Source of the DNA: an uncultured Mycoplasmataceae bacterium
Lineage (GTDB): Bacteria > Bacillota_I > Bacilli_A > Mycoplasmatales > Mycoplasmoidaceae
Direction of reading: 5' to 3'
NCBI GenBank assembly: GCA_947429165.1
Contig: CANEON010000001.1
Coordinates: 124,001-188,000 of the forward strand
Length of the DNA: 64,000 nucleotides
Shown here piece after piece: positions 41,914 through 55,491 of this stretch (the first letter of the stretch is position 1; the number at the start of each line of letters is the position of its first letter). The notes under the pieces were generated by a model that saw nothing but the letters and a program-made list of their open reading frames with translations, was not told where the DNA came from and made no database searches. The translations under genes and the position numbers were made by a program.

Positions 41914-42183
41914 ATGGCAGTAACAAGTAAAAATAAACAAGAAGCTATCAAGAAATTTGGTGGAAGCGAAATCAATACCGGTTCAATTCAAACTCAAGTT
42001 GCTTTATTAACACTTGAAATTAACGAAATTACTAAACATGTAGTTAAGAACCCAAAAGATTTCTCAACAAAAAGAGGGTTATTCCAAAAAGTTTCTAGAC
42101 GTAAATCTTTACTAAGATACTTAGAAAAGAAAGATATCGAAGCTTACCGTAAATTGATTAAAAACTTAGGTCTTAGAAATTAA
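41914..42183 (+). CDS. rpsO: 30S ribosomal protein S15
   Basis: Small-subunit r-protein of 89 residues binding the central domain of 16S rRNA. GSEINTGSIQTQVALLT and the C-terminal KRGLFQKVSRRKSLLRYL are characteristic. An AAAGGAAG site lies upstream. The 118-base gap before it includes TTGACT (41805-41810) and TATACT (41826-41831), a plausible though short-spaced promoter. The rest of the leader contains no hairpin I trust. Confidence 0.97.
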   Translation: MAVTSKNKQEAIKKFGGSEINTGSIQTQVALLTLEINEITKHVVKNPKDFSTKRGLFQKVSRRKSLLRYLEKKDIEAYRKLIKNLGLRN

Positions 42184-42247: not shown

Positions 42248-42300
42248 TTTTTAACTATTTAAGGTACTTTTTTATCCCAAAACTATGGTAACATATTACT
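42248..42300 (+). promoter_or_regulatory. Candidate alternative-sigma promoter upstream of the sigma gene
   Basis: TTTTTAACTATTTAAG (42248-42263) is identical to 16 bases at 55074-55089. Similarity continues as GGTAC, TTTTTA, CCAA and a GTAA-like element nearer the gene. The segment lies 48 bases before the sigma-factor start; the partner lies 40 bases before its gene. No standard TATAAT box is evident in between. This suggests a shared, non-housekeeping promoter class. Confidence 0.55.
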
Positions 42301-42311
42301 ACAAAAAAATT

Positions 42312-42887
42312 ATGAGTAAGTTTAGAATAACTATTAGTCAAATTAAACAATACAAAATTACAAAAAACATATCGTGAAGAAATCGAGTATTTCTATCTAA
42401 TCTTTCTATGATGAGATGTTATGCAATACACATTATTAATCAATATTTCCCATACTATAAATTACCAAAAGTAGAAATGGATTCAATATTGTATATTGCG
42501 TTTACAGACGCAATAGAAAGATTTGATGTTGAACAAAGCACATACAATGTTGATCAAGCGCTTTTCTTAAATATAAAGAGCAAGATAGTAAAAGAGGCAG
42601 TAAGAAATATTAAACGTAATTGTTTAGATAAAAAAATGCTTGAAAGCTTAAAAAATGAACGTTATTTTGTTGAGTTACCAGAATGAATTAAATTAGAAAA
42701 AGTAGATAGTATTTATGACTATATTGAAGCACATTGTGATCCAATATTGAAATCTTTCATAAGGATGAAGTTAAAAGGATATTCTGTTAAAACAATTGCG
42801 TTATTGCATGATACTACTAGCGCAAAAGTGAATAGTAAACTTTATTCTCTGTATGGCATAATCAAAAGATCTGGAATACAAGTATAA
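42312..42887 (+). CDS. SigH-like alternative sigma factor
   Basis: A 191-residue protein with a sigma-70-like layout. AFTDAIERFDVEQ, FLNIKSKIVKEAVRN and a following Lys/Arg patch match regions 2.1-2.4. A C-terminal helix-turn-helix-like segment (LKGYSVKTIALLHDTTSAKV) matches region 4. It precedes rpmG-secE-nusG, exactly the place of sigH in Bacillus and relatives, so synteny supports the call. Mollicutes often have only RpoD plus one divergent small sigma. Its own upstream region carries the motif shared with the 55130 gene, which implies autoregulation. Confidence 0.72.
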
Positions 42888-42917
42888 ATTTTTATTATTT
42901 TTTTATAAATATGTATA

Positions 42918-42923
42918 TATAAT
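42918..42923 (+). promoter_or_regulatory. Promoter -10 element for rpmG-secE-nusG
   Basis: TATAAT 43 bases before the rpmG ATG, downstream of the sigma gene stop. The predicted RNA start near 42930 would place the hairpin at 42942 inside the leader. Confidence 0.5.
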
Positions 42924-42941
42924 ATGAATACATTTAATTGG

Positions 42942-42962
42942 AAGGAGCCAAAGCTCCTTTTT
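42942..42962 (+). promoter_or_regulatory. Terminator-like hairpin in the rpmG leader
   Basis: Stem AAGGAGC / GCTCCTT with loop CAAA, followed by four more T and then the rpmG start. It lies between a -10 box and the first gene, so it may act as an attenuator or hide the only Shine-Dalgarno-like sequence (GGAG). As a terminator it would be weak to moderate. Confidence 0.5.
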
Positions 42963-42965
42963 TAA

Positions 42966-43124
42966 ATGTCTAAAAATATGAAGGTTAAAGCAATATTAGT
43001 CTGTGAAGAATGTAATTCACGTAATTACCATATTCAAAGAAATAAAGTAAGTGAAAAACGTTTAGAACTTCGCAAATATTGCCCTCACTGTAAGAAAACA
43101 ACCTTACACAAGGAAACTAGATAA
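42966..43124 (+). CDS. rpmG: 50S ribosomal protein L33
   Basis: A 52-residue ribosomal protein with the zinc-ribbon cysteines intact: CEEC near residue 17 and CPHC near residue 41, followed by LHKETR. This is the C+ form of L33. A second in-frame ATG at 42978 would give the more usual [12 protein letters not shown] start and is possible. Neither ATG has a well-placed ribosome site. First gene of rpmG-secE-nusG. Confidence 0.93.
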
Positions 43125-43150
43125 TTTTTAGTTTATATTGCTTATTCACT

Positions 43151-43393
43151 ATGAAAGACAAATCAAAAGTAGTAACTGAAGACAATAAGTCTAAGGTAAA
43201 GGTAAAAGACCCAAAGAAAAAACTTTCTTATCGTCTTAAGAAATGATTCTTTGGTGTTGGTAAAGAATTTGGAAGAATTACTTGACCTACAAAGTCAAGA
43301 ATTGTTCGTGATTTCTTTACAGCAATCATTATTGTTGCTTTATTGTGTTTAATTTTCTTAGGGTTTGATCAAATTAGTGGATTAATAAAATAG
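43151..43393 (+). CDS. secE: Preprotein translocase subunit SecE
   Basis: An 80-residue single-span SecE. A charged N-terminal 35 residues leads to the conserved amphipathic segment KEFGRITWPTKSRI (Trp written UGA) and one membrane helix DFFTAIIIVALLCLIFLGF. Its position between rpmG and nusG is universal in Firmicutes. It stabilises SecY in the translocon. Confidence 0.95.
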
Positions 43394-43401
43394 AGGTTAA
43401 T

Positions 43402-44079
43402 ATGCAAAACTCATCATCTCAATGATTTATTATTACTGCTATCGGTGGTAAAGAAGATTCAATAGTTGAATCTTTAGTAGAAAAGATTCGTAATTTTGGT
43501 TATGAAGATCATGTAAAAGAAATCAAGATCTTCAAAGAAAATAAAATTAAAGAAGAAGTTTTCTCTAAAGATGATCCATCATTGCCAAAAACAATGAAGA
43601 ATACAAAAACAACTAAGTGAGAAACTTTACCAGATGGTAGGTATAAAAGAATCAAAATTAAAGTTGTAAACAAATTCCCTGGTTACATTTTCATTAACAT
43701 GATTATGGACCAAAACATTTGATATACAATTCGTAACACCAACGGTGTTATGGGATTCGTTGGTAGTAGTGGTAAAGGTGCAATGCCTATTCCAATTACT
43801 ATTGAAGAATTTGAAGCAGTTACTGAAACAAAACAAGAAGAACAAGTTCAACAAACTGAACAAACTTCAGTTGAACAACCAACAGTTGCTCCGAAACAAG
43901 TTTATGAAACAAACTTGAGAATTGGTGATACTGTTCAAATTACGGTTGGTCCTTTTGCTGGAACTTGTGGTGATATTAAAGCCATCGATCTTGATAAAGG
44001 AACCGCTTCAGTTGAAGTTGAATTTTTCGGAAGAGCTACAACAATTGATGCTGCATTCACAGATTTAAAAATTGACTAA
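43402..44079 (+). CDS. nusG: Transcription termination/antitermination factor NusG
   Basis: A 225-residue NusG. The NGN domain begins WFIITAIGGKED and contains FPGYIFINMIMD and NTNGVMGFVG. The C-terminal KOW domain has RIGDTVQITVGPFAGTCGDI. Between the two domains lies a Gln/Glu-rich linker (around residues 140-165), and an insertion near residues 45-80 makes it longer than the roughly 180-residue standard form. It binds RNA polymerase and couples to ribosomes or Rho. Confidence 0.95.
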
Positions 44080-55073: not shown

Positions 55074-55123
55074 TTTTTAACTATTTAAGTACCTTTATTT
55101 ACCAACTTTTGTATTAAGATTAT
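55074..55123 (+). promoter_or_regulatory. Candidate alternative-sigma promoter (second copy of motif)
   Basis: TTTTTAACTATTTAAG at 55074-55089 is identical to the segment upstream of the sigma gene at 42312, and is followed by TACC, TTTATTTA and CCAAC in similar order. It ends 40 bases before the start codon of the gene at 55130. Confidence 0.55.
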
Positions 55124-55129
55124 TTCGCT

Positions 55130-55441
55130 ATGAATAATAAGTGTAACGAAAAGTATAGGTTAGGTAAACCAAGAAGATCTCTTATAGAGATCATCAAGTG
55201 TGTAAATAATAAGAAATACATTGTTGATATAATGAGTATTAAGGGAATTGGTGGAATCATGAAAAAGCCAGAGTGATTTATTGATTATGAGAAAAAACAA
55301 GATCAATTTAACAATCGTGTTTTAGATTTTATCAACAAACAGCAGGAATTTAATAAACAAGTGTTAAATCGTTTGGACAAGCATGACCAATTGTTTAAAG
55401 TAGTTATTAATCAATTTAAAAAACACAAATGAATTAAATAG
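55130..55441 (+). CDS. Small coiled-coil protein, putative sigma regulon member
   Basis: A 103-residue basic protein that I do not recognise. Residues 1-45 are rich in Lys/Arg and hydrophobic residues (GKPRRSLIEIIKCV). From about residue 52 there is a heptad-like helix (QQEFNKQVLNRLDKHDQ), suggesting a coiled coil. A second ATG at 55259 (MKKPEWF) with a better ribosome site could give a 60-residue product. An inverted repeat GATCTC / GAGATC occurs in the coding region near 55177-55193. It shares a promoter-like motif with the sigma gene and is followed by its own terminator. Confidence 0.7.
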
Positions 55442-55447
55442 AAAATT

Positions 55448-55478
55448 AAAAAAGTCCTAGAAACTCTAGGACTTTTTT
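55448..55478. terminator. Intrinsic terminator
   Basis: Stem AAAAAAGTCCTAG / CTAGGACTTTTTT with loop AAACT. It follows the gene at 55130 and also faces the end of the minus-strand tRNA cluster. Confidence 0.88.
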
Positions 55479-55491
55479 GATTATTTTTTAA

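Follow-up and report, generated by a model that had tools for sequence, protein, structure and literature searches.

An identical stretch of 16 bases stands before two genes of the DNA analysed here, one of which encodes a sigma factor. This raises the question whether the two genes have a dedicated promoter in common, and whether the sigma factor itself recognises it. The window, which is the whole stretch of 64 kb that was analysed (G000:C1:124001-188000), belongs to a genome of 709,615 bp in 7 contigs, all of which was searched. The first-pass annotation had placed the 16-mer TTTTTAACTATTTAAG 40 to 48 nt before two start codons; both copies are indeed exact and on the + strand, with a gap to the ATG of 48 nt at the sigma gene (start 42312) and of 40 nt at the coiled-coil gene (start 55130). 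A search with nusG gave only MAGs of uncultured Mycoplasmatota, Mycoplasmatales and Mycoplasmataceae as the nearest named relatives of the genome. TGA codons within both genes are read as tryptophan. The features concerned are these:

42248-42263, + strand: 16-mer TTTTTAACTATTTAAG, upstream half of the promoter-like element of the sigma gene
42248-42303, + strand: promoter-like element of the sigma gene, with the 16-mer, GTAC, a T-rich/CCCAA spacer and a -10-like GTAACAT at 42288-42294 (6.3 bits)
42312-42887, + strand: alternative sigma factor gene, 191 aa, at the SigH locus
55074-55089, + strand: 16-mer TTTTTAACTATTTAAG, upstream half of the predicted promoter of the coiled-coil gene
55074-55129, + strand: full predicted promoter element, with the 16-mer, TACC at 55090-55093, a spacer and GTATTAAGAT at 55111-55120 (45.8 bits)
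55130-55441, + strand: gene for a small coiled-coil protein, 103 aa, one of at least nine in the genome with the same promoter
55451-55482, + strand: terminator-like hairpin (AAGTCCTAGAAACTCTAGGACTT, then a T run) 3' of the coiled-coil gene, from a reading of the sequence

The 16-mer and the element around it

The whole genome holds four exact copies of TTTTTAACTATTTAAG, two inside the window and two outside, where Markov models of order 1 to 3 give an expectation of about 0.001 per 64 kb and 0.011-0.016 per genome. Among the 63,974 different 16-mers on the + strand of the window only 11 are present twice. One copy lies before sigma, and each of the other three stands 5' of a coiled-coil paralogue (window 55130-55441, C1:277391- and C3:13955-); these three are not independent because the genes downstream form one duplicated family. 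As a check, the first-pass annotation had proposed searching the genome with up to three mismatches. The counts obtained in this way are at chance level: the window has 10 matches where 10.7 are expected, and the genome has 62+78 where a reversed control has 86+99. Inexact matches to the 16-mer show no excess over the controls and are therefore uninformative.

From alignment of the upstream regions, TTTTTAACTATTTAAG is only the upstream half of a predicted promoter of about 50 bp, ACTWTTNNNGTRCC-N16-RGTDNTAWNATT. The idea of the 16-mer as the promoter captured a shared element and was too narrow, as the 16-mer is one lineage's form of the upstream half; the sister species mostly have ACTTTTCTTGTGCC at its position. 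The TAC, TTT and CCAA blocks which had been noted downstream exist, and the family alignment describes them better as GTRCC, a T-rich spacer and RGTDNTAWNATT. These blocks 3' of the 16-mer are the less conserved part in the sigma copy. When the downstream part is written as a 34-bp pattern, GTRCCTNTATTTNNNCANTTTGGTAGTAAGATTA, and up to three mismatches are allowed, nine places are found in the genome and none in the reversed control, and all nine precede coiled-coil genes.

A promoter profile, R1, was made from 13 coiled-coil-gene promoters, with the upstream regions of the window's sigma gene, the C39 gene and the SSB-like gene held out; one of its training sequences, from the sister species G032, precedes a coiled-coil gene directly 5' of sigma. 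Within the window's own genome R1 ranks nine coiled-coil promoters, then C2:32173- (E=7.5e-5), which precedes a C39 peptidase gene, then C2:108554- (E=0.06), which precedes an SsbB-like gene, and then noise. The 16-mer and the profile search together bear out a dedicated promoter common to the sigma gene and the gene at 55130, and the expected targets outside the window exist as eight more coiled-coil genes, the C39 peptidase gene and the SsbB-like gene. In the alignment GTRCC and RGTDNTAWNATT are 16 nt apart in each of the three mutually unrelated gene classes. The pattern TTTAAGTRCC-N17-GTNNTA has nine exact matches in the genome, namely six coiled-coil genes, the C39 gene, the SsbB-like gene and one chance match. 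By profile search the C39 and SsbB-like orthologues of the sister genomes G029 and G032 have the same promoter; the window's genome has TTTAAGTACC in its C39 and ssb promoters where the two sisters mostly carry TTCTTGTGCC. The -10-like part is conserved and most copies of it are not TATAAT-like, and the ssb promoter contains TATATTAT.

The weakest match of the set is the upstream region of the window's sigma gene, with 6.3 bits against the coiled-coil promoter profile. Its 16-mer is intact and, counted out, its spacing is AAG-24 nt-GTAA, but it has GTAC instead of TACC. As additional targets, low-scoring profile matches were rejected, since they are mostly intragenic; C2:105217 is a hairpin, and C2:167852 overlaps the start of an rpmG gene in antisense. 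A weak match (15.3 bits) at C1:267835-267863 lies 5' of a gene for a putative secreted protein of 297 aa, a possible further target.

The genes downstream of the element

The coiled-coil family has spread by duplication together with its promoter. Two N-terminal types can be distinguished. One is apparently leaderless (MNNKCNEKY...), as at 55130, where the start codon directly follows the promoter element, and the other is preceded by a 33-nt leader containing a Shine-Dalgarno-like GGGAG (MKKEYKYSNLKQETNTSG...). Both types share their tails, which look shuffled, and the copy at C2:191003 looks frame-disrupted. Tails such as QFKKHKWIK and RNNLK are interchangeable among the paralogues, and the paralogue at G000:C1:3113-3170 and downstream carries tandem seven-residue repeats, HSEILER/HSEILQR; sequences of this kind suggest length change and recombination within the family. 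The family resembles DUF16 of M. pneumoniae in being multicopy and short, with a coiled-coil C-terminal half and variable combinations. Membership in DUF16 was rejected, as a G032 member reaches 11.4 bits against a Pfam cut-off of 40 and the coiled-coil protein of the window has no match. The proteins were also considered as substrates of the C39 peptidase with double-glycine leaders, and this was discarded because the GG is not conserved in the family. A phage origin of the coiled-coil gene was considered as well and dropped, as a search of phage records gave no match. At G025:C7:2034-2091, the counterpart of window 55074-55441 with the same terminator and tRNA genes after it, the promoter is kept and the coiled-coil gene is broken by a stop codon. 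Together with the absence of a recognisable sigma from that genome this hints at a joint loss.

Homologues of the C39 and SsbB-like genes are found in most genomes of the genus, and both genes sit at conserved places. The C39 gene (G000:C2:30323-32152) encodes 610 aa with matches to PF03412 (2.9e-18) and PF00664 (1.1e-4). Like C39 ABC exporters of the ComA/LcnC type, its product has an N-terminal C39 domain and an ABC transmembrane region, but it has no recognised ABC ATPase domain: up to E = 5 no match to an ATPase model appeared in the C-terminal third, and no Walker A motif was seen by eye. The protein may work as a membrane peptidase without active export. The SsbB-like protein has 87 aa and stays below the cut-off of Pfam SSB. 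Its AlphaFold model (pLDDT 89) is matched by Foldseek to PriB, B. subtilis SsbB and S. aureus SsbB with E about 1e-5, and the protein is, by its model, a predicted OB-fold, SsbB-like protein. The predicted fold is like that of known SsbB/PriB proteins, whereas the protein is shorter and without a C-terminal tail.

The sigma gene, its locus and the genus

The product of 42312-42887 is an alternative sigma factor of the sigma-70 family, as homology in regions 2 and 4 and the predicted fold show. Its homologues agree on the start at 42312, and they favour it over an in-frame ATG at 42285 (9 residues more), which lies inside the -10-like region and was rejected as the start. In an alignment of 12 family members TIGR02937 is found in 11 (best 3.3e-13) and Sigma70_r4_2 in 9. 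The best PDB profile match of the family is 3mzy, sigma-H, at 1.1e-7, and the next sigma follows at 4.9e-3; this margin for SigH is moderate because single members also give good matches to a general sigma model and to WhiG. All top Foldseek matches of the predicted structure (pLDDT 82) are sigma factors, B. subtilis SigH included, with probability near 1 and E-values of 4e-3 and worse. Homologues occur in nearly all genomes of the genus, in several other genera and in other families of the order; the homologue search found no recognisable sigma of this family in G025 and G026. The neighbours of the gene in the window are as follows:

41914-42183, + strand: rpsO (S15), the 5' neighbour, also in G029 and G032
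42978-43124, + strand: rpmG (L33), the 3' neighbour typical of the sigH locus, from a reading of the sequence
43151-43393, + strand: secE, an orthologue in the same order
43402-44079, + strand: nusG

The window thus has the order of the SigH locus, with rpmG-secE-nusG downstream of sigma (42312-44079), and secE and nusG are found 3' of sigma in distant relatives too. In G038, from another family of the order, the genes, with names read from their sequences, run cysS-rlmB-sigma-rpmG-secE-nusG, which we take to be the sigH order of Firmicutes. The sigma homologue at the cysS-rlmB locus of G055 and G044 has a TAA stop in one or both, as if it were decaying. At the sigma locus of G025 and G026, before secE-nusG, lies an operon for proteins of 107, 347, 156 and 196 aa, the last of which, with a helix-turn-helix-like stretch at its end, is possibly a strongly diverged sigma.

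The two sister species have the order rpsO - coiled-coil gene - sigma - (rpmG) - secE - nusG, so that one promoter stands before both the coiled-coil gene and sigma. This sigma-operon promoter of G032 scores 51.5 bits with R1 and 45 bits with profile R2, being in both training sets, and the upstream regions of sigma operon, C39 and ssb have about 70-80 bp in common in G032. The rpsO-sigma intergenic region of the window aligns with the rpsO-coiled-coil region of the sisters, and the sigma element at 42248-42303 with their sigma-operon promoter. In G029:C65 about 13 bp of this promoter, including the -10-like part, are missing relative to G032, through a real change or an assembly error. Judged from these promoters, autoregulation of sigma has good support in G032 but no more than moderate support in the window's genome, where the sigma copy scores only 6.3 bits. 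In outline the first-pass annotation, with its dedicated promoter, self-control and targets beyond the window, is borne out; the self-control has its best backing in the sigma operon of G032, the G029 copy being damaged and the window's own copy weak.

Across the genus the same genes are also met as neighbours: sigma and C39 are operon-like in G009 and divergent in G021, and ssb and C39 adjoin in G008. A comparison of sigma and ssb upstream regions in 19 genomes of the genus gave a mean local score of 17.0 within genomes against 11.2 between them, an excess reached in 0 of 20,000 permutations, or in 9 of 20,000 once the two strongest pairs are left out; base-composition differences between genomes may contribute to it. 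Direct repeats at lag 11 have a mean z of 2.27 upstream of sigma (n=21), 1.33 upstream of ssb (n=23) and 0.65 upstream of C39 (n=17), against 0.06 +/- 0.10 in 160 control upstreams. Their sequence varies between lineages, and in G027 the repeats 5' of sigma are GGACAAAAACC GGACAAATTTA GGACAATTTG. Such 11-bp phasing normally points to a protein bound on one face of the helix, and a second regulator beside sigma is therefore possible. The C39 and ssb genes of G025 and G026 have an upstream repeat in common despite the lack of a recognisable sigma. The sigma-locus operon of these genomes gave no convincing match to the C39 repeats, and in G026 its match to the ssb repeat lies above all shuffles but resembles A/T tracts. 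We regard it as plausible, if somewhat short of probable, that a rapidly evolving SigH orthologue changes in step with its promoters genus-wide. The architecture, some three direct repeats in 11-bp phase and a -10-like element, would then persist, as would the core targets (sigma, the SsbB-like protein and the C39 membrane peptidase), while the motif is rewritten; by lineage it reads GGACA, CGAAA, CGTAAT, TTAAAAA or TTTAAGTACC.

The observations have to be weighed against other explanations. The chance-level counts with three mismatches would suit a mere coincidence in an A+T-rich genome, but four exact copies against about 0.01 expected and the 9 to 0 result of the 34-bp pattern already refute a chance repeat, whose probability we take to be negligible. 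Common descent without regulation would make the region upstream of sigma the remnant of a lost coiled-coil gene's promoter. The ancestor would have carried a coiled-coil gene between rpsO and sigma, as G029 and G032 do at this very place; the alignment of the rpsO-side intergenic regions and the duplication of the family with its promoter fit as well. Such a descent accounts for sigma and the coiled-coil genes, but not for the unrelated C39 and ssb genes at their conserved places. The 16-mer moreover stays perfect while its surroundings diverge, and a remnant would still serve as the promoter of the sigma gene, so that we find this explanation quite improbable.

The element could also be the operator of a separate regulator that binds the 11-bp-phased direct repeats, with transcription by the housekeeping sigma and the sigma gene as one target. 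The genus-wide repeats 5' of sigma and ssb speak for such a protein, as do the TATATTAT of the ssb promoter, which the housekeeping sigma could use, and the sharing between C39 and ssb that G025 and G026 have kept. We nevertheless consider it unlikely, as the -10-like part is conserved too and mostly not TATAAT-like, and as no candidate regulator gene was found linked to the targets, whereas sigma is linked to C39 and coiled-coil genes. The reading that we prefer, and hold to be fairly probable, takes the element as the promoter through which the SigH-locus sigma at 42312-42887 drives a small regulon. The sequences show a private promoter at fixed spacing before unrelated genes, the sigma operon of a sister species among them, together with its targets, their conservation and linkage, and the co-variation; the direct recognition of the element by this sigma, the feedback and the physiological role we infer. 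Against the sigma regulon stand the weakness of sigma's own promoter outside the 16-mer and the missing -10-like part in G029, the 11-bp repeats, which suggest that another DNA-binding protein also acts, and the C39/ssb repeat kept in G025 and G026 without a recognisable sigma.

A putative sigma regulon and its known relatives

In the proposed mechanism the sigma factor on RNA polymerase would start transcription at ACTWTTNNNGTRCC-N16-RGTDNTAWNATT, close to the start codons. Its targets would be the sigma gene itself, as positive feedback, the nine coiled-coil genes, the membrane C39 peptidase and the SsbB-like protein, and sigma would thereby amplify its own expression and activate the whole module. 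A state of DNA uptake or recombination is suggested by the SigH ancestry and by the SsbB-like member, whose kind serves DNA uptake in other bacteria, and is probably the output by analogy with SigH/ComX and with mycoplasma sigma-20. The coiled-coil proteins, which in two sister species have one promoter with sigma, may be its accessory proteins.

Among known systems SigH (Spo0H; its relative ComX/SigX serves competence) is alike in the sigma-70 fold, in sigma-H as the best structure match, in an SsbB-like target and in the locus order rpmG-secE-nusG, with cysS-rlmB upstream in G038. The differences are that the sigma of the window is very divergent in sequence and that its predicted targets add the coiled-coil family and the C39 membrane peptidase. 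The promoters found here do not seem to show the SigH consensus, and comE/comG-type DNA-uptake genes are not among the targets found here.

The second comparison is with sigma-20 (MG428 of M. genitalium, MPN626 of M. pneumoniae), which in M. genitalium is reported to control recombination genes and to be sustained by the accessory proteins RrlA/RrlB (PMC9262362). Both are a second sigma in a mollicute, and sigma-20 has a small regulon of its own, tied to DNA recombination, and a feed-forward loop in which accessory proteins take part (PMC9262362), as the sigma of the window would; a part like that of RrlA/RrlB for the coiled-coil proteins would be speculation by analogy. Compared by their target lists, the two systems differ, since sigma-20 acts on recA, ruvA, ruvB, rrlA and rrlB and the targets here are the SsbB-like, C39 and coiled-coil genes. 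The promoter search of the window's own genome gave no further strong targets, which leaves recA and the ruv genes without the promoter unless an assembly gap or a divergent form hides it.

Taken together, the sequence evidence supports a dedicated regulon, probably that of an alternative sigma factor, in this mollicute. Transcription regulators are scarce in mycoplasmas, and little is known of how these bacteria turn on recombination or DNA uptake. The present reading ties an alternative sigma at the ancestral SigH locus to defined targets and to a testable promoter. It also suggests that SigH, a sigma linked to competence in Firmicutes, may be the ancestor of the alternative sigma factors of mollicutes. 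If sigma and its promoters do change together across the genus, minimal genomes would hold a competence-like, self-wired module in which coiled-coil proteins are the partners of sigma, and the rewriting of promoters lineage by lineage alongside their regulator would give a natural series for the study of sigma-promoter co-evolution.
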